From Pelagomonas calceolata (Eukaryota > Sar > Pelagophyceae > Pelagomonadales > Pelagomonadaceae), in assembly GCA_918797485.1 (NCBI GenBank), contig CAKKNE010000003.1, forward strand, positions 2,604,001 through 2,668,000: a DNA stretch of 64,000 nucleotides, read 5' to 3'. The notes beneath the pieces were generated by a model. It was not told where the DNA came from and searched no databases. It saw only the letters and a list, made by a program, of their open reading frames with translations. Numbering within the stretch: the first letter of the stretch is position 1; every line of letters starts with the position of its first letter. Position numbers and translations under genes: made by a program. Shown here one piece after another: positions 12,160 through 61,435 of this stretch.

Positions 12160-12181
12160 GCTAGCGGGTGTAAGATACTAG
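12160..12181. promoter_or_regulatory. Recurrent palindromic motif, copy 1
   Basis: GCTAGCG, then a TGTAAGAT core, then ACTAG. It lies in the 475-bp divergent region (11955-12429), 206 bp upstream of the LRR start and 249 bp upstream of the HflX start. That region shows no other gene. Confidence 0.65.
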
Positions 12182-12429
12182 GAAGCGCAGGGCTTTGCTC
12201 CGCCAGCCATTGCGGGCGCGCTGAGCACTCTCGGATTGAGCAGTGGTCGTTTAGACACTCCTGCAAGCATACCAAGCAGTACTGCTGCACGCGGTTGCTC
12301 CCTGAGGCCCACCGCTGTGTTGGAGCAACTTGCACCCAAGAGCACTCGACGCGTCGCCGCGCGCGTCCGACGGCGGGCGAGGCCTCGGCGTTGGCATCGT
12401 GAAGACGCGCCAGCCGGCACAAAGAAGCG

Positions 12430-14325
12430 ATGCTGCGCGCCGTCTTATGGCTGACCCTGGCGGCGGCATTCGTGCCGGCGCCGCGACGGGCAACGCTCAC
12501 GCCGTTGGCCGGCCGCAAGCGCGGCCGCGGCAACAGCAAGGACGCCGACGACGCGCCCAAAGCGCCAAAAAAGAAGAAGTCGTCCGGCGCCGCCGCCAAG
12601 GCCGCGGCCCTCGCGGAGGAAGCGCTCGCCCCGAAACCGAAGCAGGCGGCGCCGGACCGTATTACAGCAAAACAGAAGATCCAGAAAAGGCGCGGCAACG
12701 ACGACAAAGTCGTAGTAGTGGAAGAGGAAGAAACGAAAGGACGAGAGCGCAAGAAGGCCCAGGACGAGATCAGTCCCGAGCGACGGGAATTATTGCGGGG
12801 CGTCGCCGCGGCCGAGTCCGCGTACGCTGCGGCGGAGCTCCTCGCGGACGCCGTGCAGGCCGAGAATTATGAAAGGGACGCGTCGGAGAGCGCGGCCATC
12901 GAAGGGTATTTTGATACTAGTAGGTGGCCCTCGGCCGTCTTGGTGGGTCTCGACTTAACTTCAAGACGGGGCGCGTCGAAGCTCGCGGAGCGACGCACGC
13001 GGGGCGCGGACAACGCGGGGATGGCATTGTGCGCTCCGGTTGATGCGGGCTGGACGGTGCACGATAGTTTGGCGGAGCTTGGGAGGTTATGTGATACCGC
13101 GCGCGTCAACGTCGTCGATTCCACGTTTCAGAGGGCCGACATGCCCAACGGCCAGTTTTTAGTCGGCAAGGGCAAAGTCGAGGACGTCGCGAAGCGCGTG
13201 CTCGAGCACGGGGCCGACGCCGTCGTCTTCGATGACGAGTTGTCGCTGGCACAACAACGAAGTTTAAACAAGGAGCTCGCATTCCATGGCTGTGCTGACG
13301 ATCTACAAATCTTGGATAGGACACAATTAGTGTTGCAGATCTTCTCCGAAAGAGCACAAACAAGGGAGGCTCGAGCGCAGATAGCTCTAGCAAGGGCCGA
13401 GTACATGCTGCCTCGACTGACGACGTTTTTGACGACGGGCGCCGGCATGGACTCGCGGTCAGGAGGCAAAGGGTCGAGTGGAGGCGCCTACCTGAGGGGT
13501 GCGGGAGAATCGCAGCTAGAAATGGATAGGCGTTTGTTCGGGAAGAGAATATCGCGACTGAACAAGGAGCTCGATTTATTGAAAGAAAAACGAACACAAT
13601 CGCGGGAGAAGCGCAAGACCGACGATCGGCTGCCCCTCGTTTGTCTCGTAGGGTATACGAACGCGGGTAAGACGTCACTGCTCAATGCCCTCGCGGAGCA
13701 GGCCCAGCCCTTATATGCGGACGATCGGCTGTTCGCGACCTTGGACCCGGCGACGCGACGCGTGCAGTTGCCTTCTGGTAGGGCTTGTCGATTAACAGAT
13801 ACTGTTGGGTTCCTTCAACGGCTCCCAACAAAACTCGTGGCGTCATTTAGAGCGACGTTGGAGGAGGTCGCCGACGCTTGTTTGCTACTCCATGTGGTTG
13901 ATTCTTCTTCACCCTTGGCGGCCAATCAAATGAGGGCAGTGAGAGGAATCGTCGACGAGCTCGGCTGTCGAGAGACACCAACAATAACCATCTACAACAA
14001 GCAGGACCTCTGCGAGGATGACGCAGTTGTTTTTGAATTGGACAACCTGCCCAAGTCCGATGTGGACTCGTCTTTATCCGCCTCGGCGACGTCAGGGGGC
14101 GGCGTCGATCAGTTGCTGGAGGCCGTCGACGCGGCGCTAGCGTCGCAGAATTCCCTCGTGGACTGCCTCGTGCCCTTCGCGCGGGGCGATTTGGTGGAAG
14201 AAGTTCATAGGACGGGCACGGTGGAGCGCGTCGAGCACGAGATGGAGGGGACGCGGCTCGTCGCGCGCGTGCCCGAGGCGCTGGCGAATCGGTTGGCGGA
14301 GTTTCTTGTTGTTGACGACGGGTAA
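12430..14325 (+). CDS. HFLX: HflX-type GTPase, probably plastid-targeted
   Basis: The 631-residue protein starts with a signal peptide ending AAAFVPAPRR. The small-residue/Phe boundary is the plastid-import motif of stramenopile bipartite presequences. A Lys-rich low-complexity stretch follows. The HflX-specific N-terminal domain contains VGKGKVEDVA, then the Gly-rich signature GAGESQLEMDRR. The G domain has P-loop GYTNAGKTS (about 408-416), G3 DTVGF (about 457-461) and G4 NKQD (about 522). HflX binds the 50S subunit and rescues or recycles stalled or heat-damaged ribosomes, so a plastid ribosome role is likely (inference). The stop codon overlaps a GTAAG, but the domain is complete. Confidence 0.88.
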   Translation: MLRAVLWLTLAAAFVPAPRRATLTPLAGRKRGRGNSKDADDAPKAPKKKKSSGAAAKAAALAEEALAPKPKQAAPDRITAKQKIQKRRGNDDKVVVVEEEETKGRERKKAQDEISPERRELLRGVAAAESAYAAAELLADAVQAENYERDASESAAIEGYFDTSRWPSAVLVGLDLTSRRGASKLAERRTRGADNAGMALCAPVDAGWTVHDSLAELGRLCDTARVNVVDSTFQRADMPNGQFLVGKGKVEDVAKRVLEHGADAVVFDDELSLAQQRSLNKELAFHGCADDLQILDRTQLVLQIFSERAQTREARAQIALARAEYMLPRLTTFLTTGAGMDSRSGGKGSSGGAYLRGAGESQLEMDRRLFGKRISRLNKELDLLKEKRTQSREKRKTDDRLPLVCLVGYTNAGKTSLLNALAEQAQPLYADDRLFATLDPATRRVQLPSGRACRLTDTVGFLQRLPTKLVASFRATLEEVADACLLLHVVDSSSPLAANQMRAVRGIVDELGCRETPTITIYNKQDLCEDDAVVFELDNLPKSDVDSSLSASATSGGGVDQLLEAVDAALASQNSLVDCLVPFARGDLVEEVHRTGTVERVEHEMEGTRLVARVPEALANRLAEFLVVDDG

Positions 14326-14398
14326 GGTGGGCTCGTTTTCTTGTTTTTTTTTGTTTGTGCCTGGCATCTCCGCGACTGCATTTCTTCCACAGTGGTAC

Positions 14399-15244
14399 TT
14401 ACTCGGTCGCGGGTGCCGCGCGGCGACGACGCGGGGGTTCTCCCAGCCAGAACTTGCACACGAGATGGGCGAGGGGGTCGGGGAGGCCCGGCGGCGCCCG
14501 TCGCCAGGCGGCGCGCGTCCTGGGCCGAGACTTCGGCGCGAAGAACAGCAGCGCAAATCCCTCCGGCGTCTCGGAAGTAGGCGTCGCCCGGCCGCGATGA
14601 ACCAACGCGCGAAGGGCAAAAATTTGTCGGAGCCGCGGGCGCAGAAGCCGCGCGTCCGCGAGAATGCGAGCAGATTCACGATATATAGAACCGAAGTAAC
14701 TCTCAGAATGGAGGTTGGCATGTTCCTCCGGTGTGAGCGTTCTACCTCCATCTATGTAGGTCATCGAAGGGTCAGCTCCGAAGCGGAGTAGCACACGAAC
14801 CGTGCGAGGGCTTTTACGAGTAGCATACCAGAGAGGGAAATCGCCCGAGCTTCTTGTGTGATTGACATTGGCGCCGGCGAGACACAGTTGTTCTGCTGAT
14901 TCGGCTTGTCCATAGAGGGCAGCAATAAAGAGCGGTGTGTTGTTGCCAGCGTCATTGACTGCGTCTGCCGTTGCGCCGTGAGCCAGTAGCATGCGCACGA
15001 TGTTGGTGCGGCGGCGTTCCAAGTCAGCTAGCAAATTTGGGTCCGACGCGACGGACACATTTGGGCCGCCAACCGCATAGTGCAGGAGTGTTTGCCCAAT
15101 TTCGTGACCACGCATATTGGTGTCCGTCGCGTCCGATCGGGCCATGCGCTCGTCTGGATTGCCTCCGGCTTCGAGCCACGCTTGTACGGTGGCGACGTCA
15201 CCCATCCTCGCGGCGAGACACAGGTCGTCTGACAGCCCTGGCAT
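14399..15244 (-). CDS. Ankyrin-repeat protein with F-box/SOCS-like C-terminal tail
   Basis: The 281-residue protein starts MPGLSDDLCLAARMGDVATVQAWL and holds about four ankyrin repeats (residues 5-155; GQTLLHYAV, NNTPLFIAALYG, SGDFPLWYATR). A C-terminal module follows with LRALVHRGRATP and then GLPDPLAHLVCKFWLG. The same arrangement (Arg-rich LRxLVxxxRA helix, Pro-rich linker, then IPDxVFxxILxFW-like helix) ends the ankyrin proteins at 38465-39814 and 56821-57807. In animals an ankyrin array with a terminal SOCS box recruits cullin ubiquitin ligases, and this tail could do a similar job (inference). Confidence 0.78.
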   Translation of the reverse strand: MPGLSDDLCLAARMGDVATVQAWLEAGGNPDERMARSDATDTNMRGHEIGQTLLHYAVGGPNVSVASDPNLLADLERRRTNIVRMLLAHGATADAVNDAGNNTPLFIAALYGQAESAEQLCLAGANVNHTRSSGDFPLWYATRKSPRTVRVLLRFGADPSMTYIDGGRTLTPEEHANLHSESYFGSIYRESARILADARLLRPRLRQIFALRALVHRGRATPTSETPEGFALLFFAPKSRPRTRAAWRRAPPGLPDPLAHLVCKFWLGEPPRRRRAAPATE

Positions 15245-15404
15245 GTCCTTGAAAGTTAAACGTTGGCCCGCCTGTAGTTACCGCACGTGGCTTGAGCGGC
15301 AGTGCCCGTGTCGCCTGAAGAACACCCGCGGACTCCCTCGCCGAACTGAGGGGGGGGGCGAGTTGAAAAGAGTCGCGTGGAGAGCCGCCACTGAGCTGCA
15401 CTGA

Positions 15405-15428
15405 CCTAGCGTCCAGTAAGACACTAGC
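15405..15428. promoter_or_regulatory. Recurrent palindromic motif, copy 2
   Basis: CCTAGCG, GTAAGACA core and CACTAGC. It lies 161 bp upstream of the ankyrin gene start (15244) and 113 bp upstream of the DUF6940 start (15541), inside their divergent promoter. Confidence 0.65.
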
Positions 15429-15540
15429 ACGGCAGGCATGCCGCGAAATGCTGCCTCACAGAACCCTTAAGCCTGCCCATACGCACGTGAAAAACGCTAC
15501 ACTACTTGTGCCACGAGCGCTGCGACGATTTGACCGCCGC

Positions 15541-16365
15541 ATGACTGCGGCTGCGCTCCTCTTGGCTGCAACAGCGCTCCTCACCCAGTTCACGACGCAG
15601 CAGCGCTACATAAGGAAGTATCGCACTCCCCGGCGCGACACGCTGCATCCATCAGTAGTGAACCACCGCGGCATGGCCTCGCCCGACGGCAAGTACCGCG
15701 CAACCACAAAAAGCGACGAGAGCAGTGAAACGACGCACCTGACCGACGCCGCGACGGGCCGCCGGTTAACCATCGGCGAGGTCGCGCGGCTCTGGCGCGA
15801 TGATACCTTCGCCGGCTGGTTCCAGGAACTCCTTGCGCAGTCTGCGTTCGACGCGTACTTTTGGGAAGTGCCGCCGGTGAACATCGTGACGTTCGTCGAG
15901 ACGCCCTACGAGCACACGTTGGTCCAAAACCGGTGGGGCTTTCGGGCCGCGGACTCTTCGGACTTCGCCCAGCATCTGGAGGGCGCGTGCTCAAGGGGCG
16001 ACCGCTGCGCGGCGTTTCCCAATTTGGGTAGGGATTCGATGCTCGTGTCGCCCTGCGACGAGGGCGGGCCGCCACCAGTCCAACCGCGGGCCCACGGGAC
16101 CCTCTACGAGCGGGCGAACCCACATGTGGCGGCACCAGAGAGCGCCTACGGCCACATCGCCGCGTTCGCGAGAAACGCGCCGCAGGCGCAGGCCGCGGCC
16201 TTCTGGGCGAAAGTGGGGTCGACCTACGAGTCGCTCGTGGCCCAGAAGGGCGACCGGCCGGTGTGGCTCAGCACGGAAGGCTCCGGCGTGCCGTGGCTCC
16301 ACGTGCGCATGGACGCGCGGCCCAAGTACTACCACACGGCGCACTACAAGGTGTGGAGTGGGTAA
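15541..16365 (+). CDS. DUF6940-family protein
   Basis: From ATG 15541 the protein has 274 residues with a hydrophobic N terminus (MTAAALLLAATALLTQF), a possible signal anchor. The body contains LTIGEVARLWRDDTFAGWF, AYFWEVPPV, AAFPNLGRDSMLVSPC, HIAAFARNAP and GVPWLHVRMDARPKYYHTAHY. This is the pattern of a widespread uncharacterised family in algae and bacteria, with a conserved VPWLHVRLDxRPKYY C terminus. An upstream in-frame ATG at 15448 is possible but abuts the palindrome. The stop lies in GG|GTAAGT. A 274-bp intron to 16637 would add about 25 residues ending at 16712 in phase. I favour the unspliced end because the family domain is complete. Confidence 0.72.
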   Translation: MTAAALLLAATALLTQFTTQQRYIRKYRTPRRDTLHPSVVNHRGMASPDGKYRATTKSDESSETTHLTDAATGRRLTIGEVARLWRDDTFAGWFQELLAQSAFDAYFWEVPPVNIVTFVETPYEHTLVQNRWGFRAADSSDFAQHLEGACSRGDRCAAFPNLGRDSMLVSPCDEGGPPPVQPRAHGTLYERANPHVAAPESAYGHIAAFARNAPQAQAAAFWAKVGSTYESLVAQKGDRPVWLSTEGSGVPWLHVRMDARPKYYHTAHYKVWSG

Positions 16366-16552
16366 GTCTGCTGTGTGTGTTTCCTTCTTGGAGTGGGGGT
16401 GCCCGTGGCGCGACTCGTCTCTAGAGCGCGGCTCGGGGCCGCGGTTTTCGCGGCGGCCGGCGTTTTTGGGTGCTGTCTCTTTGGAGTCAATGGGCGATAT
16501 TCCTCCGGTCCCCTAGGGATGCTGCGCCTCGGAAAGCGCTTCTTGCTTGCTT

Positions 16553-16575
16553 GCTAGTGTCTTACATGCCGCTAG
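16553..16575. promoter_or_regulatory. Recurrent palindromic motif, copy 3
   Basis: GCTAGTG, TCTTACA core and CGCTAG, in the inverted orientation. It lies between the DUF6940 gene and the small Gly/Ala-rich frame downstream. If the DUF6940 gene were spliced to 16637, this copy would be intronic. Confidence 0.6.
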
Positions 16576-16683
16576 TTAACACCAGCCACCGCTTTTGCGG
16601 CCAGCGTACGCACGGCAGAGACGTGTTTGCGAGCAGGGTGGACTCCTCGCGTAACCCCCAGACGTATCCCAAGCTCTGGTGCG

Positions 16684-17040
16684 ACGCGCCGTCCCTAGGA
16701 GCCCAAGGCTAAAAAAGGAACAGCCCCTTGCATCTTGCGAGTCAATAACAAAGTAGCCGATAAAGTACCAGGAGGTTTTATCGTGAAGGGCGCGACGGGC
16801 GCGACGTCGAGTGTGTTACATGGCACGGTCAAGGGCGCCGGGGCCGCCGTCGGCGGCGTCGCCGGCGCGGGCAAGGCGGTCACGAAAGGTGTCACCTCCG
16901 GAAGCGTCTCGGGCATGGCGGCCGGCATGAAGGAGGCCGGCGGCGAGCTCGCGGGCGGCGTCAAGGGCGCGGGGTCCGGGGTGGCCGGCGGCGTGACGAA
17001 TGCTGGCAGCGCGGCGAAGCGCGGGTCCGTGAAGGAGTAG
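16684..17040 (+). CDS. Possible Gly/Ala-rich small protein or exon, start unclear
   Basis: An open frame with no ATG until 16915 runs to a TAG at 17038-17040. It encodes a Gly/Ala/Val/Lys-rich chain with a loose repeat of the type KGAGxGVAGGV..AG. Amphipathic KGVTSGSVSG-like repeats recall lipid-surface-binding or phasin/synuclein-like proteins, but I do not recognise a family. Either an upstream exon supplies the ATG or translation starts at 16915 (41 residues). The opposite strand reads as a Pro/Ala-rich frame, which I consider a shadow. It converges on DPH1. Confidence 0.35.
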
Positions 17041-17176
17041 AGTCGTGGTGGCGTCGAGCCCCTCGTCCCCCCTCTTCCCCCACCGGGGCTCCGCGGATAA
17101 CTATAGAAACAACAAGTCCTAAACCGCGACGACGGAGAACGGCCCACGCCATCGCCGCGACGGTTACACAAAACAT

Positions 17177-19713: not shown

Positions 19714-19758
19714 CTGTGAATAAGAGTCTTGTTGTTAAGTGCTCGGGGCAGCGGAGGC

Positions 19759-20365
19759 CTAAGCGGTGAGGCCGCGCAGCTCCTGCACGAGGAGCCCGAG
19801 CGCGACGTAGCGGACGACGGCGAAGGGCGCGTAGGGCGGCGGATCCATGCCGCCCTCGTGGTAGTGGCCGACGAAGGCGCGCAGCCAGAAGTAGATGACC
19901 TGGCCGCCGACGGCGAGCGTCGAGGCCAGCGGCGCGGCGACGCCCTCCGAATTGAGGTAGAGCAGCACCGCCGTCAGGAGCGGCGCGTACTCGGCCTCGT
20001 TGAGCTGGGCACTCCACACGCGCTGGTAGAACTGGGACTTGAGAATTTTGGTACACTCCGCCTTGGGCGCGGACTTCATCGTCAGCTTGAGGCGGAACAT
20101 GGCCGTCATCATCAACTGTGTGGAAATCGACGCGAGTCGTCCCCGTAACTGCATCTGCTCGATGGCGTGGAGATCTACGCCATCGACGCGACGTCGTCCC
20201 CGTAGCTGCGGCAGCTCGATGGCGACGTCTCGGCAATAATTCTCAGAATAATCACTGGTTGGTTTCCACACAGATCATCACCTTGGTGAGCAGCGCGTGG
20301 CCGACGATGATCGTCGCCGCCGTGCCGGACGGCACGATGGAGAGAGCATTCTTCAGCGCGTCCAT
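19759..20365 (-). CDS. MAPEG-family membrane protein, split by an introner
   Basis: Exon 1 is 20365-20270 (MDALKNALSIVPSGTAATII..) and exon 2 is 20115-19759. Removing 20269-20116 (154 bp, GT-AG, phase 0) joins HALLTKVMIC to LMMTAMFRLKL. The product has about 150 residues and four hydrophobic helices. YSENY-like and RVWSAQLNEAEYAPLLTAVL blocks resemble the RxxxNxxE..P.F helix of MAPEG proteins (membrane glutathione S-transferases and eicosanoid enzymes). The intron is a full transposon-like introner with terminal inverted repeats. The protein faces PhyH end-to-end, 45 bp away. Confidence 0.8.
20116..20273. mobile_element. Introner element A (spliced as an intron in the MAPEG gene)
   Basis: 158 bp bounded by inverted termini CTGTGTGGAAATC and GG(T)TTCCACACAG, and flanked by ATCATCAA / ATCATCAC (7 of 8 match), a target duplication. 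The interior has inverted GATGGCGTGG / CGCCATCGACGCGACG blocks shared with elements B and C. Both ends supply GT and AG on either strand, so the element can be removed as an intron in either orientation. Confidence 0.85.
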
Positions 20366-23291: not shown

Positions 23292-23314
23292 GCTAGCGGT
23301 GTGTAACACACTAG
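23292..23314. promoter_or_regulatory. Recurrent palindromic motif, copy 4
   Basis: GCTAGCG, GTGTAACA core and CACTAG. It lies 130 bp upstream of the mL46 start and about 92 bp upstream of the ATG at 23406. Confidence 0.6.
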
Positions 23315-25300: not shown

Positions 25301-25323
25301 GCTAGCGTGTCGAAACACACTAG
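25301..25323. promoter_or_regulatory. Recurrent palindromic motif, copy 5
   Basis: GCTAGCG, degenerate core (TCGAAACA) and CACTAG. It lies in the 373-bp divergent region (25176-25548), 126 bp upstream of CCB1 and 226 bp upstream of the pseudokinase. No other gene is seen there. Confidence 0.55.
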
Positions 25324-31563: not shown

Positions 31564-31702
31564 GGTGTGTGATCTAGTCCTGAGCATGAGTGTAGTTCGC
31601 CAGCGCTGCTCTCTGCTCGGGTGGAGCTGTGTAAAGCGGCTTCCTGTAACCAGATCTGGCAGGCGGCAGCAGCATAGGCACTTGCACTCGGACAAAAACG
31701 AG

Positions 31703-31726
31703 GCTAGCGGCTGTAAGACACACTAG
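31703..31726. promoter_or_regulatory. Recurrent palindromic motif, copy 6
   Basis: GCTAGCG, CTGTAAGACA core and CACTAG. It lies 140 bp upstream of the PsbP-like start and 169 bp upstream of the small frame at 31895. Confidence 0.65.
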
Positions 31727-34289: not shown

Positions 34290-34313
34290 CCTAGCGTTGG
34301 TAAAGACACTAGC
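34290..34313. promoter_or_regulatory. Recurrent palindromic motif, copy 7
   Basis: CCTAGCG, GGTAAAGACA core and CTAGC. It lies in the 441-bp divergent region (34096-34536), 195 bp and 224 bp upstream of its two genes. The region also holds an ACTAGCGTTGCGCTA palindrome near 34220. Confidence 0.6.
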
Positions 34314-36095: not shown

Positions 36096-36370
36096 GGTGT
36101 TGCGCGGTGCGTACCGCTGCCCACTGGTCTACACGTTTGGCTCGTGCGGCCGGGATCGTAGACGACGCGTCGACGCCGCGGCGCACGCGATCACTGGTAC
36201 CAGGATCTGGGACTGAGTGGCCCTTTTGTGCCCAGGGCTGCCCGCGCGGCCGGGATCTGCGCCACCGGTCCGTGCGCGCGACAGAGCCCCACGATACAAG
36301 GAGCAGCCTCCCGCTCACGCGGCAGGAGACGCTCACGAGGCCCCGAAATCACAGCGCTCAAGCTCGCCTC

Positions 36371-36392
36371 TAGTGTCTTACGGTCGCTAGCT
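36371..36392. promoter_or_regulatory. Recurrent palindromic motif, copy 8
   Basis: CTAGTG, TCTTACG core and TCGCTAGC, inverted orientation. It lies in the 520-bp divergent region (36096-36615), 276 bp and 224 bp upstream of the two flanking starts. Confidence 0.65.
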
Positions 36393-39994: not shown

Positions 39995-40017
39995 GCTAGC
40001 GGCCTGTAAGATACTAG
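39995..40017. promoter_or_regulatory. Recurrent palindromic motif, copy 9
   Basis: GCTAGCG, GCCTGTAAGA core and ACTAG. It lies in the 454-bp divergent region (39815-40268), 181 bp upstream of the FG/ankyrin start and 252 bp upstream of the TKL kinase start. Confidence 0.65.
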
Positions 40018-42475: not shown

Positions 42476-42500
42476 GTTAGCGGCCTGTAAAGACACTAGC
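42476..42500. promoter_or_regulatory. Recurrent palindromic motif, copy 10
   Basis: GTTAGCG, GCCTGTAAAGACA core and CTAGC. It lies between two co-directional genes, 54 bp after the TKL kinase stop and 164 bp upstream of the ATG at 42664, so it marks a 5' flank rather than only divergent pairs. Confidence 0.65.
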
Positions 42501-43521: not shown

Positions 43522-45257
43522 CTAAGCGAACGCGAGCGCCGACCGCCGCCGCGTCCACGCCGGCCGCGCGACCATGCCCGCCCGGACGGGAAAGACGACG
43601 GCTCTACTGAATTGCACGCCAAAGTACGTGAGCCAGATCGCAGGCAGTCCCAACCCGCGCGCGAGAATAAATCGGTGCGCCGCCAAGACCGCCACGCCTA
43701 AGCCTGCGTACCACGAACATAAAAACCTCAGATCGCGCGTCGCGAGCAGCGCCCCCTCCGACGTCACCGCCGTCGCGTGGAAGCAAAAATTCAGCACCGT
43801 CAGCGGCAGGCACCTCGCGATGGCCCGCTGCACGGCCCGGTCCGACGTGAGCAATGAACCACGCAACACCACGAGCGTCGAAGCCAAGACACAGACCGCC
43901 GAGAGGCACCAGCCCGCCCTCAGGACCTGGCGCACGGTCGGTTGGGCCGCCTTCGTGTCCAGCGGTCTTCGCCCTTCGCCGTCGCCCACAAACCTCGGGA
44001 GGTAGGCCAAAGCTAGCGACGTACCGACATCTCCTACGACGAAGCAGAACATGGCGACCTGTGTGGAAATCAAATTTCGGGCGCCCCACGCCATCGACGC
44101 GACGTGCTTTCCGTAGCTGCGTCTGCGCGATGGCGTGGCAATTCCACGCCATCGACGCCACGTTGTCCCCGTGGTCGCGTCGGCTCGATGGCGTGGAGGC
44201 TCACGAAGATCCTAATTCACTGGTTGATTTCCACACAGATCGCTACCGAGAACACGACCGTGTGCGCCGCCGTCTGCGTCGCGTCCAACGCCGCCGCCGT
44301 CATCGCGCTACTGTTATGTAACAGTAGTTTCATCATGCTGCAGAAGACGAAGGGCCCCAGCGCGAAGAAGGGCCGAATGTCTCGCTTGATGGACGTGGGG
44401 ATGCGCTTCAGGCGGTCCTTGATGGCGAAGCAGGCTCTACCGACCACTCCTTTCCGTTTCAGGGACAGGATTAAAAGTAGAGCGGCAGCGTATTGCGACG
44501 CCGCCGTCGCTATCGCCGCGCCTAACAAACCTTGGCGCGGGACGAGCACGAAGTCTCCCATGAGATTTAACACGGCGGCGATGGCCACGGACAGCCCCGG
44601 CGTCGTCGCGTCCCGCAGCCCTAAACAGGCGGCTTGCGCGACGGACGCTATGAGTGCGGCCGGCAGCGCGAGCGCGCGCACGGCCACGTACGGCGCCGCC
44701 GCCTTCGCCAGGTCGGCGCTCTTCGAATAGGAGAGACAGACGGGCATGGCTCCTATGACGAGGGAACCGCCCACGAGTACACCGACGAGGCCGGCTAGAA
44801 GTAAGCCTGTGGTCGCTGCCCGCGACGCCGCGTCGAGGTCGCACTCGTCGTCGTCGCCGCCACACCTCGCCCTCGCGACTAAATCCGTCGTAGCCACGGA
44901 CAAGAACACGAGCAACGTCGTCATGCTGTCCGAGATCGTGCCCGCGGGGCCCAGAGCCGCTAATTCAAAGCTCGACCGCCGCCCCACGAAACCCGCATCT
45001 ATCAACGACATGAGCGGCCCGGCCACGTAAATCGCCAACGCGGGAGCCGTAAACGCGATGCACTCCTTAAACGTCGGCGGCGGCTGCCGCGTCGGGCCTC
45101 TTTCAAACACGGGCCGGGGCGGCGGGTATGCGGGGCCGCTCCAGGCGCGCCGCTGCCGGAACGCGTCGACGGCGTTGAGCGTGAGCGGTGGGCGGCGCGG
45201 CGGCGGCGTCTGGAAGGCGGTTATGCCCTGGAGCGCAAGCAAGAGGGTGGCTTTCAT
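43522..45257 (-). CDS. MATE-family transporter, plastid-targeted, split by an introner
   Basis: Exon 1 is 45257-44235 and exon 2 is 44058-43522. Removing 44234-44059 (176 bp, phase 0) joins TVVFSVAIC to VAMFCFVVGDVG. The approximately 520-residue protein starts MKATLLLALQGITAFQTPPPRR, a signal peptide plus the small-residue/Phe plastid-import motif. Twelve hydrophobic segments typical of MATE/DinF carriers follow (KECIAFTAPALAIYVAGPLMSLIDAGFVG; LAALGPAGTISD). MATE carriers export organic cations or citrate-like molecules using H+ or Na+. An in-frame Met at 45302 lies upstream. Confidence 0.87.
44059..44238. mobile_element. Introner element B (spliced as an intron in the MATE gene)
   Basis: 180 bp with inverted termini CTGTGTGGAAATCA and TGATTTCCACACAG, flanked by ATGGCGAC / ATCGCTAC (6 of 8 match). 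The interior carries alternating GATGGCGTGG and CCACGCCATCGACGC blocks that can fold back. It is homologous to elements A and C. Confidence 0.85.
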
Positions 45258-48532: not shown

Positions 48533-48930
48533 CGTCGGGGCGCTGAACGGGACCCACGGACGACTTCCGCGGACCGGTGCCAGCGCCCCCGGTCCACGAC
48601 GGACGCGACGCGGCCTCCGCACCTTGCGCCCTCGGCCAGCCCTACACCGCCGCGGCCCCGTCTCCTCGGTGGCGCGGGTCCGCGACAGCGGCGGCGCCTG
48701 CGTCCCTTTCTCGCGTCTCGGACGGCATCAGTCGGAGCGCTGCGGGCACCCAACAGACGACGTCCGCGGACCAGTGCCCGCGCCCGGTCGGCACGACGGA
48801 CGCGACGCGGCCTCCGCATCTCACGCCCTCGGCCAGCCCTACACCGCCGCGGCCCCGTCTCCTCGGTGGCACGGGCATCCGCGATCGCGGCGGCGCCTGC
48901 GTCCCTTTCTCGCGTCTCTCAGACGGCATC
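48533..48930. repeat. Two tandem copies of a 197-bp GC-rich unit
   Basis: Copy 1 (48533-48729) and copy 2 (48730-48930) share blocks such as ACGACGGACGCGACGCGG, CCTCGGCCAGCCCTACACCG and GCCTGCGTCCCTTTCTCGCG, with small indels, so the period is 197-199 bp. The period is not a multiple of three and the copies fall in different frames, so it is unlikely to be coding. It lies in the gene-free stretch 48224-49407. Confidence 0.8.
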
Positions 48931-49331: not shown

Positions 49332-49355
49332 GCTAGTGTCTTACAGCACGCTAGC
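49332..49355. promoter_or_regulatory. Recurrent palindromic motif, copy 11
   Basis: GCTAGTG, TCTTACAG core and CGCTAGC. It lies 53 bp beyond the MOZART1 stop codon, with no recognised gene start nearby. It is the one copy not upstream of an identified gene. Confidence 0.6.
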
Positions 49356-50351: not shown

Positions 50352-50375
50352 GCTAGTGCCTTACATGCCGCTAGC
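50352..50375. promoter_or_regulatory. Recurrent palindromic motif, copy 12
   Basis: GCTAGTG, CCTTACA core and CGCTAGC. It lies 102 bp upstream of the METTL21-like ATG at 50477 and 85 bp upstream of the minus-strand frame at 50267. Confidence 0.65.
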
Positions 50376-50476: not shown

Positions 50477-51136
50477 ATGTCCGCAGCCGTCTCCGCCGCC
50501 GAGGAGCAGGAAGAAACGATCACCCACAACGACCACACCATCAAAGTCGCCGCGAGCTGGCGCGTCGGCATCGGCGGCAAGACCTGGTCCACCGGTGCTT
50601 TAGCTTGCAAGCACCTCGCCGCGCACGCGGACCGCTACGCGGCATTAGCACCAAAGCGCCAACTGAGAATCTTGGAGCTCGGCGCGGGCACGGGCGTCGC
50701 GGGCCTCTTCGCCGCGAAATGCTTGGAGGCGCGCGTCGTGCTCACGGACGCGGAGGACCACCTCGAGCTTTTGCGAGACAACGTCAGGCGCAATAATTTG
50801 GGGGAGAGCGTCTCCGTCCAATTGTTCGACTGGAAGGATGAAACAAGTTGGGACCTCACGTCGGAGCCGGATTTGATTTTGTGCACGGACAACGCCTACC
50901 ATCCCTCTTTATATGAGCCGCTCGCGGCGGCGCTGGACAGGTGCCTATCCAAGGGCGCCAAGGGCCTCTTCGGCGTTACAAAAACGGACACGTCCTTTTC
51001 CTTCTTCGAGCTCCTCACAGCTCATGGCCTCGACTACCGCTTCGCCGAGGCGCCGGCCGACGACTACTACGCGCTCCTGGCCATCTGTAAAGCGCCGGCG
51101 TTCGACGGCCGCCGCGACGCGTGGGAGATGCGTTGA
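50477..51136 (+). CDS. METTL21-type protein methyltransferase
   Basis: From ATG 50477 (MSAAVSAAEEQEETITHN) the protein has 219 residues. The seven-beta-strand methyltransferase fold is visible: RVGIGGKTWSTGALACKHL (typical WxxGxxL pre-motif), SAM motif LRILELGAGTGVAGLFAA (about 64-80), VVLTDAEDHLELLRDNVRRN, and DLILCTDNAYHPSLYEPL in place of the DxxY motif. The family methylates lysines on chaperones and translation factors. The DNAYH variant of DVVYH/DCVY may shift specificity. An upstream Met at 50378 sits on the palindrome and is unlikely. Confidence 0.85.
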   Translation: MSAAVSAAEEQEETITHNDHTIKVAASWRVGIGGKTWSTGALACKHLAAHADRYAALAPKRQLRILELGAGTGVAGLFAAKCLEARVVLTDAEDHLELLRDNVRRNNLGESVSVQLFDWKDETSWDLTSEPDLILCTDNAYHPSLYEPLAAALDRCLSKGAKGLFGVTKTDTSFSFFELLTAHGLDYRFAEAPADDYYALLAICKAPAFDGRRDAWEMR

Positions 51137-52394: not shown

Positions 52395-52417
52395 TCTAGT
52401 GTGTTTACGTCGCTAGG
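52395..52417. promoter_or_regulatory. Recurrent palindromic motif, copy 13
   Basis: TCTAGTG, TGTTTACG core and CGCTAGG, a more diverged copy. It lies in the 557-bp divergent region (52281-52837), 115 bp upstream of FCP1 and 421 bp upstream of the secreted protein. Confidence 0.5.
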
Positions 52418-52837: not shown

Positions 52838-53688
52838 ATGCGGGTCCTCCTCGTCGCCATCGTGCTCACGGGCGCGGCGGGCACCGATTGCGTCGACTTC
52901 CCGTGCAAGTGCGAGTGCGGCAACCTCGCGGAAGGGAACCGCGACGACGGCGTCTGCATCCGCCTGAACTTAGTCCGGCCCGAGAAGGGGATCCGCCCCA
53001 ACATCGACAAGGCGACGTGTGAGGGGGAATATAGAGTCGGCCAAAATGCTCCCTTCTACTTCTGCTGCGTCGACAGCTGTGCGGAAATCAAATTTACGGC
53101 GTGTTCGTCCTGAATAGCCGCGTCGATCTCCACGCCATCGACGCGACGTCTGTTCGATGGCGTGGCGGTGTTGGTTCCTCACCGCTCGACGGAACCAGCG
53201 CGGCCACGTCATCGCCGAGAAATGACTTAGTGAAGAATTATTGAGTGCGCCCGACACGCTGGTTGATTTCCACACAGGTCGACAGCCAGGACCGCCCCGT
53301 GACCCCGCCGCCCGAATTTGTACCGTTAAAAATGAAGGCCTGGTTCGCGATGACGGACAAGTACGGCTGCGACCCGTGCGAGCAGGCCAAGTTCCCGGGT
53401 TACAGGCCGAGTAAGCCGAACAAGTTCAAGCAGTGCCTCTACTACAAGAAAAAAAGGAATGGCGTAGTCACTGTGAAGTTCAAGAACAACGTAGACAAGG
53501 CTGCGTGCGAGGCCCTCGCCGACGGCGACGAAAAAGTGGAGACGTATTTCTGCGAAGAAGGAGGCGGGCCGCCGAAGGACGGGGTATGCACGCCGACGCC
53601 GGTGCCGACGGCCGCGAAGACGTACTCGTACAACTTCGAGACCATGCAGCCGACGCTGAGCCCGACGCCGCAGGCCACTCCCCCCTGA
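52838..53688 (+). CDS. Secreted Cys-rich protein, split by an introner with a GC-AG intron
   Basis: Exon 1 is 52838-53080 and exon 2 is 53278-53688. Phase-0 joining gives FYFCCVDSC|VDSQDRPVTPPP. The product is about 217 residues: signal peptide MRVLLVAIVLTGAAG, a Cys-rich first half (DFPCKCECGNLAEGN, CIRLNLVRPEKG, CCVDSC), a second half with CDPCEQAKFPGYRPSKPNKFKQC, and a Thr/Pro-rich tail (QPTLSPTPQATPP). The two halves look like related modules of the form C..C.K/PGxRPN.D/NK..C. Extracellular or cell-wall function is inferred; no family recognised. Intron 53081-53277 starts GC, not GT. Confidence 0.75.
53077..53277. mobile_element. Introner element C (spliced as an intron in the secreted-protein gene)
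   Basis: 201 bp with termini CTGTGCGGAAATCA and TGATTTCCACACAG, flanked by perfect 8-bp duplications GTCGACAG (53069-53076 and 53278-53285). The interior shares CCACGCCATCGACGCGACG and GATGGCGTGG with A and B. The T-to-C change in the left terminus turns the donor used by A and B (GTGG) into GCGG. Confidence 0.9.
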
Positions 53689-54954: not shown

Positions 54955-55332
54955 GGAAACGAGGCTGCCCCGGCGCCGTCGCGGGGCCGCGGCGGCTGCC
55001 TAATGATAGATGCGCGGTGGTCCGAACGGCAGTGCAATGCCAGCGGCAGCCTGAGTGAGAGCCCCGCTCTGCGAGGGGCGACGCAGCCCTCGCCCGGGGA
55101 GGCCCGGCCCGAGGGGTCGCGGGACGGTTCCCGGACTCCGTGCGAATCAACTCGGCAGGAAACCCCTTCCCCTAGTTAGCCTAGCCAGGCATAGCGGCCA
55201 ATTCACCTGCCAATTAACGCGCCGCCGCCGCCGACGCGGACGAAGGCAGCCGCCGAGAGGTCCTCTCCAGGCAACCGAGACCACCGCCAGAACCGCGCCG
55301 CCGCCGCCACCGACAACCACCGGGGCAGCACC
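54955..55332. other. Divergent promoter region, CDC20/CDH1 and CFAP161
   Basis: 378 bp without a gene. CTAGTTAGCCTAGCC near 55173 has tandem CTAG arms but not the full palindrome. A mixed Ala/Thr-coding stretch before the CFAP161 ATG is probably 5' UTR. Confidence 0.4.
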
Positions 55333-56544: not shown

Positions 56545-56820
56545 TAGGGCTCTTTTTTGCTGCGCGTAAGGACTGCGGTATACTAGCTTTTCTGTACTTC
56601 CACACCGGAAAGCTCTGCGCGAAAACCCGTTTAAAGTCGAAAAGGGATCCCCAAAAAAAAATCAATTATACTTGCGATCACGCGTACAGCTGGCGCGCGC
56701 AGACCGGACGCCATTCGCAAGACTGTAGTTACGTGAAGAAATTAACGACAGACGTTGTGGACTTGTGGCCATTGGCAAAGTCTTTGTGCCAATCACTGCT
56801 AAATAAATCACTGTCTGCTA
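56545..56820. other. Intergenic region
   Basis: 276 bp between two plus-strand genes, with an A9 run near 56655. No good palindrome copy; GGTATACTAGC occurs near 56577. Confidence 0.4.
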
Positions 56821-57807
56821 ATGGAGGGCATGGATCATCTCACGCGTGCATCTCGAGGCGGAGATGCGGCGGCCGTGCGGAGAATCCTCGACGAGGACGC
56901 GAGAAGCGAAATTCCTCTCATAGCGGCGTGCGCGAACGGGTATTACGACGTGGTCAGCTTGCTGCTCTCCCGAGGTTTCAACCCGAACCGGACGAACGAG
57001 GCCGGCGCGACACCCCTTTTCGCGGCCCTATATCCCTTTGTCTGTCTCACAGACACTGCGGGATCGCCGCCCTTACTATCTCCGGGCAGGGTGATAACGC
57101 AGTGCTCTACTCGGGGGATGCCCAGGCCGGTCGGTGTCCTGGGCGAGCCTGGCCTCGTGCAGGTGCCGTGCGGGGAGGGCGCCGCGCCATGGCACGACCG
57201 GCGCAGAGGTGGCCGCCACTACACGCTCCGCAACGTGCCCGAGGCGCTAACGCGCGGTCTGCTGTGCCAGGGGCCGCACCGGCTCAGGAATGTGGAGGGC
57301 AAACCGGCACTCACGATCAGCATGTGGACCGGAGGCACGGCTTACGCGTGCTTCACCGACGGTCGCTGCGGCGGACTCGTTGCGGCCTTTCAGGAGGACG
57401 GGTGGGCCGACGGTCCGGGCGGCGGGCTCGCGTGGGGGCGGCCCGGCCACGGTACGATGGGCACGATGAGCCACGTCCTGTCGAGGCGAATCTCGCCCGG
57501 CGAGACGTACGCTTCGCCACCAAACTCGCACAACGACACGGTCATGGTCGTGGTGCTTGTCCCGGGTTCCGGCCCGGAGGTCCCGGACCCTCGAATTCGC
57601 GTCGTCCGGGCTCTACTCAGCGCCGGCGCGGACGTCTACGGGGCGGTCCAGCGCTTCGGCACGCCACTCCGTATCGTGTGTCAGACCCCCTCGCCGCCGC
57701 TCAAGCTCCTCGTGCGGAGGTTCCTGGCCCACCGCATGCGCGCGACCGCGCGTCATTGGTGGTTACCCTGGCCGCTGGCTTGTCGCGTCGCCGGCTTCCT
57801 CGTGTAA
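56821..57807 (+). CDS. Ankyrin protein interrupted by an unrecognised domain
   Basis: The 328-residue protein starts MEGMDHLTRASRGGDAAAVRRIL with two ankyrin repeats (EIPLIAACANGYYDVVSLLLSRGFNPN, GATPLFAAL). An insert of about 175 residues follows (about 70-245), e.g. ALTISMWTGGTAYACFTDGR and SRRISPGETYASPPNSHNDT. The ankyrin pattern then resumes (RVVRALLSAGADVYGAVQRFGTPL) and the protein ends LKLLVRRFLAHRMRATARHWWLPWPLACRVAGFLV, the shared tail. A strong acceptor-like CTGTCTCACAG lies near 57050, but I found no matching donor, so I keep one exon. It converges on the kinase gene (19 bp). Confidence 0.65.
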   Translation: MEGMDHLTRASRGGDAAAVRRILDEDARSEIPLIAACANGYYDVVSLLLSRGFNPNRTNEAGATPLFAALYPFVCLTDTAGSPPLLSPGRVITQCSTRGMPRPVGVLGEPGLVQVPCGEGAAPWHDRRRGGRHYTLRNVPEALTRGLLCQGPHRLRNVEGKPALTISMWTGGTAYACFTDGRCGGLVAAFQEDGWADGPGGGLAWGRPGHGTMGTMSHVLSRRISPGETYASPPNSHNDTVMVVVLVPGSGPEVPDPRIRVVRALLSAGADVYGAVQRFGTPLRIVCQTPSPPLKLLVRRFLAHRMRATARHWWLPWPLACRVAGFLV

Positions 57808-57826
57808 GACTAGGTAGGACATACTC

Positions 57827-60073
57827 TTAGAGGGCCTCCCCGTTCCGCGCCACGAGGTCGTGCGTCGGGATCCTCCCCTTTTTCGACACGGTTTCGACCT
57901 CGCCCCGGAACTGCTCCACCAGATACGTGTTGACCTGCTGCATGGACGGCTGCGACATGGCCTGCGAGAAGACGTCGCCGTGCACCAAGGTGAGCTGCGC
58001 CGCCGTGACCGGTCGAAGAGCCAAGACTACTGTGGAAGCGAACTGCCCCGCACTATCCAGTGGATGGGCCCCCGGCCGCTCGTTGCAGTACACGAAATCC
58101 TTCGGCCAGAGCGTGTGCGTGTGCCTCCTGTTGGTTTTCGTATCTAAGACGTCGACTTCCACCACACCATCTTCCACTACTACAAACTGGTCCTGTTTGG
58201 ACGTGTCTCGGGGCGATTTGGCCTTCACGTCTGTATCAGCGTACTCCATGTTCGCCCAGGCGACGCTCCCGGCCGTCATCGACGTCCTTGACGCTTGGCC
58301 GCCGTCCGGTTGCGCTGCTAGGGCCGAGGCCCAGGACCAGACCAAGCCTCGACATCGCGCGGCGGCTTGGTCCTGGATCGGGCCTCGGACGCCCGTGAAG
58401 ACATCCCCCAACAACTGAAACAAGTGGCCGGGCACCGCTAATAAAGCACAAGACGTCGAGGCACACGTCGCGGTCGACGCTCGAGGTCGGACGCCCTCCA
58501 ACAGCTCCGTCTCGCCGAAACTTTCACCAGTCCTTAACCGATGCAATCCTAACGAGAGCTCCCTCCCGCTCTTCGAGGCGAATCCGGATCTAGGCCTCAG
58601 CAGAAACGAGTGCGAGATGAGGACATCACCATCTAACAGTATGTAAAAGGCAGGATCGGTCTCGCCTGCTGAGAAGACCAAATCACCTCTCCTGAGTGAG
58701 TGCGCGGGATATAACGGAGGCAGCATGTGTCTGAGCCGCTCTTTGGGCACCTTGAGGACGTCGTCTCCCGGCCTTGCAACTGACCTAAGCATCTGCCGCG
58801 TATCGGCTTCATCCAGTTCATCTCCCAACAGTCGAGCGACTCTCTTGATGTCCTCCGTCGTCACGTACCCATTATTGTCCGAGTCAAACACGTCCATGGC
58901 CGCTCTTCGGCTCCCAAGTTGCGCCGTGCCCGCGCCCCGTTCTCTGGCCAAAGCTTGGTCCGCGTAGCCGACCATGACCGCCAACAACATGGCCTTGAAG
59001 CGCCTCCTGCCCAGATGGAACTCGCGCAACGCATCGGACGCGGCCTTCGCGGCAGCCTTGTCCCTAAACCCTTCGCCCCTTGTGGGATCCTGGAGCCACG
59101 CATGTGCTAAAACTTCCGCCGCGGCCGGTCGGTCTGATGGTCTATCCGCTAATAATCGTTTGACGAGCGGCCTCGCCGCGGACGGCACGCGGGCCCACGC
59201 GGCACCCTTGAACGCGCCGGCCGCGTCCGCGCCAGCCAATACTCTCCGAGTAACCTCCGCATCGTCGGCATCATTCCTAGCATCAAAAGGGTGCGTCCCC
59301 GTCAACAGGAGGTAGAGGATCACACCCAGAGACCAGAGATCGGCAGAGGCGTCAAACGCGTCGCCCCGCAGCACCTCGGGCGCCGCGTAGGCCGGCGTCG
59401 CGCCCGCGGCGCCCCTTGTCCTTAGTTCCTCGCCGTTTTCTGTTGAGGGACCGACGAATCTCGCGGAGCCGAAGTCGACCAATCGCACGTCAGAGGCATC
59501 AGTTTCATCACTCTTCAACAGCACGTTCTCCGGCTTGAGGTCTAAGTGCGCGATGCCCATCTGATGTAAATAAGCGACAGCATCTACTAGCTCTCGCATC
59601 ACTCCCGCCGCACCCGCGGGAGAATACGCGCCTCGCTCCACAAGCCGATCAAACAGCTCGCCACCCCTGGCGAGTTCCGTCACAATATACCAGGCGTCGT
59701 CGCCCTCGAACAATTCTTTGTAGGAGCAGACCGACCGGTGCTCGCCCGCGACTCGTAGTAAAGTCGCTTCCTCTTTAACTCTCTTACCAAGCCGCTTCAG
59801 CGCCTCCGGCGGCAGGTGCTTCTTCGACACCTGCTTGATGGCCATGATCTCGCCGCTGCTCTTGTTGACGCCGGGGAAGACGACGCCGTGGCCGCCGACG
59901 CCTAAAGGCCGCTCGGGCTCGAGCAAATGGTACGCGTCCGCGAGGCGCCGCTCCAGGCACCGAGCTTGCTCGTCTTTGCGCGTGAGGTAGGCGGCCGGCA
60001 GAAGCCCGGCGCAGGCCAGGGGCCGCGCCGCTCTCGCTGCGGCGGCCGCAAACATGCTCTCGGAGAGCAGCAC
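57827..60073 (-). CDS. CaM-kinase-type kinase with EF-hand and cyclic-nucleotide-binding domain
   Basis: The 748-residue protein starts MLLSESMFAAAAARAARPL; Met 60055 is a possible start. The kinase domain (about 50-330) has GVGGHGVVFPG, AIKQVSKK, HLDLKPENVLL, VDFGSARF, AAPEVL and DLWSLGVILYLLLTGTHPF: CAMK group, all catalytic residues present. An EF-hand (DSDNNGYVTTED) follows at about 400. A cNMP-binding domain (about 465-560) has GDLVFSAGETDPAFYILLDGDVLIS and SFGETELL.. RPRASTATC, the phosphate-binding cassette. A second, weaker cNMP-like barrel may follow. Kinase plus Ca2+ and cNMP sensors in one chain suggests signal integration. Confidence 0.88.
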   Translation of the reverse strand: MLLSESMFAAAAARAARPLACAGLLPAAYLTRKDEQARCLERRLADAYHLLEPERPLGVGGHGVVFPGVNKSSGEIMAIKQVSKKHLPPEALKRLGKRVKEEATLLRVAGEHRSVCSYKELFEGDDAWYIVTELARGGELFDRLVERGAYSPAGAAGVMRELVDAVAYLHQMGIAHLDLKPENVLLKSDETDASDVRLVDFGSARFVGPSTENGEELRTRGAAGATPAYAAPEVLRGDAFDASADLWSLGVILYLLLTGTHPFDARNDADDAEVTRRVLAGADAAGAFKGAAWARVPSAARPLVKRLLADRPSDRPAAAEVLAHAWLQDPTRGEGFRDKAAAKAASDALREFHLGRRRFKAMLLAVMVGYADQALARERGAGTAQLGSRRAAMDVFDSDNNGYVTTEDIKRVARLLGDELDEADTRQMLRSVARPGDDVLKVPKERLRHMLPPLYPAHSLRRGDLVFSAGETDPAFYILLDGDVLISHSFLLRPRSGFASKSGRELSLGLHRLRTGESFGETELLEGVRPRASTATCASTSCALLAVPGHLFQLLGDVFTGVRGPIQDQAAARCRGLVWSWASALAAQPDGGQASRTSMTAGSVAWANMEYADTDVKAKSPRDTSKQDQFVVVEDGVVEVDVLDTKTNRRHTHTLWPKDFVYCNERPGAHPLDSAGQFASTVVLALRPVTAAQLTLVHGDVFSQAMSQPSMQQVNTYLVEQFRGEVETVSKKGRIPTHDLVARNGEAL

Positions 60074-60367
60074 TTGTCACTTTACGCAATTAGTGTGTTG
60101 CGCGGCTCGTGCGCCCTTATGCGTTTCACAGCGGTTTCACACGTGCTCACGCAGCTTCTCGACGTGCGTGTCGAATCGTGCGCGCCGCCTCGGCAAAGTG
60201 AAGTGTCACTGCTACAAAAATATAATGCTATCTCCTAGACATACTAGCGCTACGGCTCGTAACAACTCCTACGAAGCTTCTACTCAGACGGAAGTGGTGT
60301 GAGCCGTACGAAACAACGCAGCCCGGGAGAAGGCATCCGCCCACTAGTCCTAGCACCGCAACAGAAA

Positions 60368-60394
60368 CGCGTCGAACCCCACGCCATCGACGCG
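60368..60394. repeat. Perfect 8-bp hairpin related to introner interior
   Basis: CGCGTCGA and TCGACGCG enclose ACCCCACGCCA. The CCACGCCATCGACGCG part also occurs inside introners A-C. It lies in the otherwise empty 60074-60417 stretch, 24 bp past the 3' end of the minus-strand gene. Could be an introner remnant or part of a 3' processing signal. Confidence 0.45.
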
Positions 60395-60417
60395 CCAAGA
60401 ATCATACCACACAACAA

Positions 60418-61350
60418 TTACACACGCGAGCCGCCGCGCTTTTCGTTCGCCGCTTGCGCGCGCTGGCGCCCGTTCTCGGAGAGCTCCTTCGCGAAGGTCT
60501 TGGCGCAGTTGTAGCGCTTGAAGTCCCGTCCCGACGTCGGCGCGTGGAGCTTGACCGGGTGGTACAACAGACCATGCGATGTGGGATTGAACCACGTCTC
60601 CGCATCCTTCTCGAACTTGGCCCCGCTCCAGGCGCACTTCGCGCGGTAGACGGCGAGCCACTCCCGCGGGATCGCCTCGGTCGCGCACCAGCTCCGCCCG
60701 CGGCACAGCTGGTACGAGAAGGCGCCGTGGATTCTTCTCCGCGGCGCGCCTCGTTCGCGATTGTCGATTCGCGCGAGGTCGCGGCGTATGGCTCGTATTA
60801 ATCGCGTCGAGAGGCGCGCGACGGGTAGTAGCGCCGCCATGCCGTTGCGCGTCCGCCGGATATGTGCTATCAAATCCGCCTGACTACTGTTAAACTTGCG
60901 AAACAGTTGGTCCCAGCTCCCCTGCGCGAGCTTCGCGTCCTCCTCGATGACCCACACATAATCATAACGTTTGTCCTCTGCAACATAAGCGGGCAGCGAG
61001 GCCATCAAGAGCTGGTGGCTGACAAACGCGCGCGTGGCCGCGGAAGCGTTCTTCTTCAGAAGGGCGAAGGGAACGCGGACCGTCGTGCCGTTGGTCGGGT
61101 GCCTGAGGACGCCATATTGCTTCGACGCGTCCACAAAAAGCGCGACGTCGTGGGCCGGGCAGCCTCGGCTCATCGCGTCCGCGGCATTGTGGATGTTTGT
61201 TAATTCGTTTTGCACAAATGATTCGTCCGTGTGGGCACCAAAAGCAATTAAAGTACGGCCTCGACTGGCGCAGTGCGCCGCGGCGGCGTGCCGGGGCTGG
61301 TCCTCGGCGCCGCACCGCACCAGGAGCAAGCTCAGCGCGACGACGCGCAT
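60418..61350 (-). CDS. Secretory-pathway glycosyltransferase-like protein
   Basis: The 310-residue protein has a signal peptide (MRVVALSLLLVRCGAED). YDYVWVIEEDAKLAQGSWDQLFRKF lies in the middle, where an acidic triplet after a beta strand resembles a DxD-type sugar-nucleotide site. DLIAHIRRTRNG, HGAFSYQLCRGRSWC and KFEKDAETWFNPTSHG follow. This layout is common in small uncharacterised algal glycosyltransferase-like proteins. Assignment rests on the motif and overall look only. It is divergent from the NmrA-like gene via palindrome copy 14. Confidence 0.55.
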   Translation of the reverse strand: MRVVALSLLLVRCGAEDQPRHAAAAHCASRGRTLIAFGAHTDESFVQNELTNIHNAADAMSRGCPAHDVALFVDASKQYGVLRHPTNGTTVRVPFALLKKNASAATRAFVSHQLLMASLPAYVAEDKRYDYVWVIEEDAKLAQGSWDQLFRKFNSSQADLIAHIRRTRNGMAALLPVARLSTRLIRAIRRDLARIDNRERGAPRRRIHGAFSYQLCRGRSWCATEAIPREWLAVYRAKCAWSGAKFEKDAETWFNPTSHGLLYHPVKLHAPTSGRDFKRYNCAKTFAKELSENGRQRAQAANEKRGGSRV

Positions 61351-61411
61351 TGGTGCGCACGTCTATTTGGCATACATAGTGCTCTACGCTGCGCTGCAAA
61401 GTTTTGCTTGC

Positions 61412-61435
61412 GCTAGTGTCTTACAGGTCGCTAGC
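61412..61435. promoter_or_regulatory. Recurrent palindromic motif, copy 14
   Basis: GCTAGTG, TCTTACAG core and TCGCTAGC. It lies 62 bp upstream of the glycosyltransferase-like start and 152 bp upstream of the NmrA-like start. Confidence 0.65.

Follow-up and report, generated by a model that had tools for sequence, protein, structure and literature searches.

What is the short imperfect palindrome that stands before one gene after another in Pelagomonas calceolata, a very common alga of the ocean, and what might it do there? The question arises from a stretch of 64,000 nucleotides of contig CAKKNE010000003.1 (C3:2604001-2668000, hereafter the window), in which a sequence-only reading had listed 14 copies of a palindrome with GCTAG(C/T)G and CACTAGC arms at gene 5' flanks, and had proposed a bidirectional core promoter or insulator element or, alternatively, a tiny repeat that inserts into promoters. 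We find that the element recurs far beyond the window, keeps a characteristic distance to gene starts in either orientation, and is constrained between species. On these sequence patterns, we consider it likely to be the binding site of one abundant, lineage-specific promoter factor (or partner pair) in Pelagomonas and its sister species.

Copy number and anatomy of the element

In the exact form CTAGCG-N2-6-GTAAGACACTAG, the element occurs 2,047 times genome-wide (32.4 Mb), with strand counts of 1018 and 1029, against none on either strand in the reversed control. A looser form was counted in a sample of 264 kb, made up of the window and 20 loci of 10 kb evenly spaced along C1, with a copy defined as a match within three edits and the reversed sequence as control. 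The sample holds 42 copies versus one in its control (five four-mismatch matches among 46 were left out, and allowing indels added one), which corresponds to about 5,100 copies in the genome (3,700-6,950). It also predicts 2,448 exact copies, with a spacer allowed slightly wider than in the genome scan; since this is near the number counted, the sample appears fairly representative. The 12-mer GTAAGACACTAG has 20 occurrences, whereas base composition predicts 0.012. The two arms alone (14 bases, up to three mismatches) show no excess, with 10,274 matches versus 11,036 in the reversed control, so that the signal lies in the combination of parts.

The halves of the element are paired. A left arm with at most one change lies 1-5 bp from each of the 32 right halves (12 bp, at most one change); at the best of the offsets tried, 30 of these arms are perfect and two carry one change, and the left arm was not preselected in this test. 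The reversed control yielded no right half. Copy counts far above the reversed controls, together with the paired halves, lead us to reject a chance origin.

The consensus is AG-CTAGCG-KYMT-GTAAGACACTAG-CAA(GC), 22-29 bp long, and the refined core reads GTAA(G/C)ACACTAG; the element is preceded by AG and followed by CAA(GC). The arms are 7-bp imperfect inverted repeats, a feature shared with the inverted terminal repeats of a miniature inverted-repeat transposable element (MITE). Conservation fades beyond about 5 bp on either side, and the flanks of different copies are unrelated. Measured between the CTAG ends of 61 copies, the element is 22 bp long in 40 cases, 21 bp in 11, 20 bp in five and 23 bp in three; 19 bp and 18 bp are rarest, with one copy each. 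The 40 copies of the 22-bp form carry 36.6 bits of information over 36 columns, a figure inflated by the choice of copies.

All 14 window copies were recovered at the places listed, as the sole matches of the fuzzy pattern there, and both orientations occur as claimed (eight on the + strand, six on the - strand). They span 21-23 bp between the CTAG ends, or 23-25 bp if the next base outward is counted at both ends; the copy at 31704 was scored as 20 bp by the script and is 23 bp by its sequence. The arms described earlier are borne out. The core word given with them, TGTAAGAC, proved too loose a description, being present exactly in only four of the 14 copies; as an exact word it occurs six times in the window, twice outside the copies, versus 0.6 expected.

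The assembly searched comprises 32,445,274 bases in eight contigs, with TTAGGG-type telomere repeats at the beginning of C2, and the window has 63.3% G+C. For strain RCC100, the accessible text of PMC9481584 gives a nuclear genome of 32.4 Mb in six contigs, a 90-kb plastid and a 39-kb mitochondrial genome, 63.6% G+C, 16,667 genes and 0.45 introns per gene. One sampled locus, L025, falls in the part of C1 that the same text reports as duplicated on contig 5 (PMC9481584).

Placement at gene starts and constraint between species

Placement was judged in the sample against our own gene models; 13 of 20 window genes tested matched Pfam, 10 of these above the Pfam cut-off. Forty-one of the 42 copies could be used for gap classes, the copy of L026 lying at a locus edge without a class. 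No copy falls in the 194 kb of predicted coding DNA. Between genes, the element is present in 21 of 49 divergent gaps (22 copies) and 16 of 46 tandem gaps (16 copies), in 3 of 23 intron-like gaps, and in none of 52 convergent gaps, which are mostly short; a uniform spread over noncoding DNA would place 4.0 copies in the convergent gaps (P for none 0.015). In the sample, the contrast of 5' with 3' flanks that the sequence-only reading had asked for favours 5' flanks. Because divergent gaps show no clear excess over tandem ones, we regard the element as a promoter element that is not specifically bidirectional. Within the window, the earlier description of location held: 10 of the 14 copies lie between divergent starts in our models, three lie in tandem gaps that lead to a modelled ATG and one (16554) in a tandem gap that does not, the nearest modelled ATG is 73-236 bp away for 11 copies (60-280 bp had been given as usual), and no copy is within a coding segment.

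The start distances of copies in tandem gaps scatter less than those of random positions (standard deviation of log distance 0.42 versus 0.95, P 0.0004), and 15 of 16 copies fall 84-320 bp from the start versus 8.3 expected, in a range chosen after seeing the data; the distance from the upstream stop runs from 21 to 1,091 bp. In divergent gaps the copies are centred (20 single-copy gaps; none of 5,000 randomisations was equally centred). A copy is present 40-400 bp upstream of 48 of the 132 modelled genes, and the density is about one copy per 6 kb. Orientation relative to the tandem gene is the same in nine cases and opposite in seven.

The surroundings of the element are also distinctive. 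G+C dips to 0.54-0.59 within 100 bp of it, and 14 of 41 copies have an A/T run of at least five bases within 25 bp, whereas random positions would give 2.9 (gaps without the element) or 3.3 (elsewhere in the same gaps), and none of 400 draws was as high. Recurrence in many promoters, avoidance of coding DNA and adjacent A/T runs are features of general regulatory factor sites. On small counts, the words CATAAA, ATAAAA and TATAAA show no enrichment around the element, and a TATA partner was rejected for this reason.

Across the chromosome the element may be rare around C1 2.59-2.93 Mb. Among the matches listed, the stretch 2,587,713-2,927,313 has no + strand exact copy and a lone right half at 2,695,656; earlier 100-kb bins mostly hold 1-4. 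Two C1 loci of low G+C lie at 2.34 and 2.66 Mb, and in one low-GC locus, L033, the gene model found no coding DNA, so that region was left out of the placement judgement. Centromeres are placed in low-GC regions of P. calceolata in the accessible text of PMC9481584.

The element is kept in a related species. An exact scan of a bacterial and archaeal genome collection matched eight contigs, four of which (L045, L047, L048 and L049) are homologous to P. calceolata DNA: L048 and L045 share synteny with C6 (82-94% identity), L047 with C4, and L049 matches C6 at 89% over 339 of its 3,889 bases only, at one end. The other four (L046, L050, L051 and L052), left out of the comparison, are probably chance matches. 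Three more pieces (L056-L058) come from the same two metagenome-assembled genomes (MAGs) and match P. calceolata; they were accepted only on DNA homology, because fuzzy matches in four MAGs equalled the controls (8 versus 8 in all). The two marine MAGs, labelled Spirochaeta sp. MED672 and uncultured proteobacterium (ERR599052_bin.23), thus hold pelagophyte DNA in L045, L047-L049 and L056-L058; as reference MAGs they are contaminated, and they provide sequence of the sister species. Because these sister contigs came to light by their copies of the motif, a selection bias is absent only on the P. calceolata side.

Ten sister copies lie within three edits, and nine have a partner in P. calceolata. 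Seven of the 10 keep place and orientation (L048:2199, L048:4291, L049, L047, L056, L057 and L058); for L058, the element and gene blocks match different places on C2, which points to a rearrangement between the blocks. The L045 copy is shifted within the same gap, 18 instead of 75 bp after the upstream stop, and its flanks align poorly. The copy at L048:5353 is inverted in the same gap, 38 bp from a 20-bp anchor (18 of 20 bases identical) from which the P. calceolata copy is 33 bp away. Over seven pairs that could be aligned, changes affect 5 of 127 core positions (two being 1-bp indels), 4 of 26 spacer positions (P 0.046) and 392 of 956 flank positions including gaps, a flank figure raised by the shifted L045 copy; the two pairs omitted from the nine are the inverted one, which is unalignable, and that of L058. 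In the IMG/VR viruses the exact pattern had no match, in a search from which records near the P. calceolata genome were possibly excluded; three matches to a relaxed pattern are taken as chance because none has a second copy within three edits, and viral use was rejected.

What the element may be

With thousands of copies about 200 bp before starts, none seen inside genes, and conservation in a relative, the element is a putative landing site, probably for a protein that opens promoters. An abundant, sequence-specific nuclear factor would bind the two inverted GCTAG(C/T)G arms and the GTAAGAC stretch in either orientation; this factor and the flanking A/T runs would keep the intergenic stretch free of nucleosomes, and the open stretch would let transcription begin to one side or to both. 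Roughly a third of promoters would carry this mark. The inverted arms would suit a pair of like DNA-binding units, and a flexible link would agree with the 1-2 bp of play in their spacing. The earlier interpretation is partly supported: of the bidirectional core promoter there remains a genome-wide element of 5' flanks that occurs in both orientations, frequently between divergent starts, and is under constraint between species, while bidirectional specificity is lost to the similar occupancy of tandem gaps, and "core" is unsupported for an element at about 200 bp from the start codon, with a variable offset and no TATA-like word tied to it.

Several observations weigh against the factor reading. 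The information in the element exceeds the roughly 13.6 bits needed to find about 5,100 sites, so that one ordinary factor explains its length poorly, and the excess suggests two contacts or two proteins. The spacing of the arms varies (18-23 bp in all, mostly 21-22), and most dimer sites, unlike this element, keep a fixed spacing. The absence from convergent gaps is a modest test, because there are few of these gaps and they are short (at least 20 bp in 38 of 52), and 58 of the 95 divergent and tandem gaps lack the element. Distances to modelled starts span 73 to over 1,000 bp, and the starts and coding segments come from our own coding-potential model, trained on the sample with no use of RNA. 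Among the sister copies, the weak one at L048:462 has no partner in P. calceolata, and, in the other direction, the sister counterpart of one P. calceolata copy (L053, reverse coordinate 9949) is degenerate. A stricter version of the factor reading is possible, and we hold it only tentatively: a composite element of 24-29 bp, recognised by a lineage-specific two-part factor, would define about a third of promoters, with about twice the information needed, and could shift or invert while its core stayed nearly fixed. If true, this would be a promoter-definition system of unusual strictness in an ecologically dominant alga; we know of no such strictness in other eukaryotes.

Could the copies instead be the ends of a MITE-like mobile repeat, or the product of a copy-and-insert process, scattered into accessible promoters with no host function? 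The inverted arms and the surplus information would suit this, as would the one orthologous copy that is shifted in its gap, the one that is inverted and the one that has no partner; introners and a 155-bp dispersed repeat do exist in the same genome, and 2-bp flank matches run a little higher than in shuffles for two of the nine boundary choices, without correction (8 versus 4.4, reached in 8 of 300 shuffles; 5 versus 2.3, reached in 11 of 300). An insertion should leave a direct duplication, and none of 3-8 bp was found beyond chance at any of the nine choices. Nor do the other data favour it, with flanks unrelated beyond about 5 bp, a core that changes more slowly than spacer and flanks, a constrained distance to starts and seven of 10 sister copies with a partner in the same place and orientation. 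As to empty sites, which the sequence-only reading had named together with target duplications as a sign of a MITE, nine of 10 sister copies have a partner and the weak one at L048:462 has none. The tiny inserting repeat is disfavoured, and we judge the mobile reading unlikely.

The remaining alternatives concern function. An insulator or domain-boundary site, bound by an architectural protein that separates neighbouring genes rather than activating promoters, would agree with the orientation-neutral placement, with the rule of nearly always one copy per gap, and with the way promoter-bound architectural proteins are used in Drosophila (accessible text of PMC11229372). The element was not found in the 52 convergent gaps, and it is the start distance that is constrained while the upstream-stop distance is loose. 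Sequence alone does not separate this role from the factor reading; we judge it quite improbable. Short sites by the thousand, constrained, free in orientation and accompanied by A/T runs, might likewise serve as replication origins or in other chromosome maintenance that prefers promoters; the placement follows gene starts closely, however, and one copy per 6 kb or so would exceed what origins need, and we give this very little weight. A stem-loop in 5' untranslated regions or upstream transcripts is the least credible: the consensus strands fold at -10.4 and -6.8 kcal/mol, yet the orientation to the gene is neutral, the conserved loop and flank bases are partly unpaired, and the window and three loci have no Rfam match at the gathering threshold. 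The RNA stem-loop was rejected on orientation and the Rfam result.

The factor would work much as yeast general regulatory factors, ZNF143 in mammals or M1BP in flies are proposed to, and the element may be set beside known promoter sites. The Abf1 consensus is RTCRYN5ACG and that of Reb1 is TTACCCG; the element consensus, compared by reading, holds neither, and an Abf1 or Reb1 site proper was rejected. The ZNF143/Staf site is long. Motif 1, the site of M1BP, has the consensus YGGTCACACTR and has ACACT in common with the right half of the element. The element, unlike Motif 1, is palindromic with GCTAG arms, and a comparison of the consensus by reading gives no evidence of common descent. Yeast Abf1 and Reb1 have recurrent short promoter sites, A/T tracts are a second route to nucleosome-free regions, and repertoires of general regulatory factors change between lineages (accessible text of PMC2897762). 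The element resembles this arrangement of Abf1/Reb1 and poly(dA:dT) in recurring at many promoters beside A/T runs; it differs in being 22-29 bp long, palindromic and of another sequence. In the parts of the sources consulted, ZNF143/Staf has about 2,500 predicted sites in about 2,000 mammalian promoters, with inherently bidirectional activity and an ACTACA submotif that differs from the element (PMC7154149); M1BP is a sequence-specific factor at 2,000 or more active Drosophila promoters, linked to chromatin opening (PMC11229372); and in Phytophthora, of the stramenopile group of oomycetes, the core promoter block INR+FPR, 16-19 nt long, shows good conservation in about 13% of genes (PMC3599244). 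That block is located at the start site; the present element is found some 200 bp before the ATG, in either orientation and with a different sequence.

As the sequence-only reading had supposed, the form of the motif seems not to have been described: the literature searched, including PMC9481584, PMC13284251, PMC12054182 and PMC5917014, with supplements and subscription papers outside its scope, has no description of it, and the main texts of the P. calceolata papers searched contain neither "motif" nor "promoter". The kind of element, a recurrent promoter factor site, is already known; its sequence, length and lineage appear to be new. An element that can be counted, has a constrained position and stands before about a third of the modelled genes provides a handle on promoter definition in pelagophytes, and could be used as bait for its factor and as a marker in start prediction. 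Why some promoter sites carry surplus information could also be examined on it, given its length, its paired halves and the single inversion in place.

Window copies and neighbouring repeats

Table 1. Copies of the element in the window, with gap class and distance to modelled genes (window coordinates).
Position	Strand	Form	Gap	Distances and neighbours
12161..12181	+	21-bp form	divergent	216/259 bp to two modelled starts
15406..15427	+		tandem	modelled start 15541, 124 bp on; about 20 bp with alternative upstream ATG at 15448
16554..16575	-		tandem	189 bp ahead of segment without modelled ATG
23293..23314	+		tandem	141 bp ahead of gene 23162-22392 (MRP-L46 match, below Pfam cut-off)
25302..25323	+		divergent	CCB1-like gene on one side, kinase gene on the other
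31704..31726	+	2-bp insertion in right half (GTAAGACACACTAG); end from sequence	divergent	294 bp to segment of unclear start; open reading frame with ATG at 31587 about 117 bp away
34291..34312	+	GTAAAGACACTAG variant	divergent	206/253 bp
36370..36390	-	21-bp form	divergent	284/236 bp
39996..40017	+		divergent	192/226 bp; ankyrin and kinase genes
42477..42499	+	TTAGCG arm, GTAAAGACACTAG	tandem	start 42664, 176 bp on
49333..49354	-	outlier	2.25-kb gap	nearer modelled start 1,120 bp away
50353..50374	-		same gap as 49333 copy	113 bp ahead of lysine methyltransferase gene at 50477
52396..52416	-	21-bp form	divergent	125/432 bp; beside NIF-phosphatase gene
61413..61434	-		divergent	73/163 bp

The long gap that holds the copy at 49333 also contains a 145-bp direct repeat (85% identity) at 48534-48678 and 48731-48875. 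Another word, GGCTGCCCC, recurs in promoter-type gaps, at window positions 11997, 25451, 25496 and 54963 and at sampled loci; 18 of its 27 occurrences are in promoter-type gaps, nine in coding DNA or at locus edges and none in convergent gaps. It is possibly a second promoter word, with a weak and partly compositional signal.

A separate dispersed repeat of about 155 bp (TGTTACGGTGCTAGGACTAGTGGGCGG...) is present in both species, at L048:299-455 and 2050-2172, in L053 and in L001, and accounts for 39 of the 47 listed genome matches of L048 (40 of 271 candidates scored). It has no Rfam match at the gathering threshold. It sits beside two L048 copies of the element, but other copies of the repeat lack the element, and it was rejected as a carrier. 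The sequence at L048:299-455 was rejected as an introner.

Introner-like repeats, with ACGCCATCGA blocks and TTTCCACACAG ends, occur in the window at 20113-20251, 44053-44216 and 53114-53331. An introner word lies within 200 bp of only one of 41 copies of the element, and a link between the two was rejected. The accessible text of PMC9481584 reports an intron-length peak of about 210 bp in P. calceolata, which is the size of its introners.

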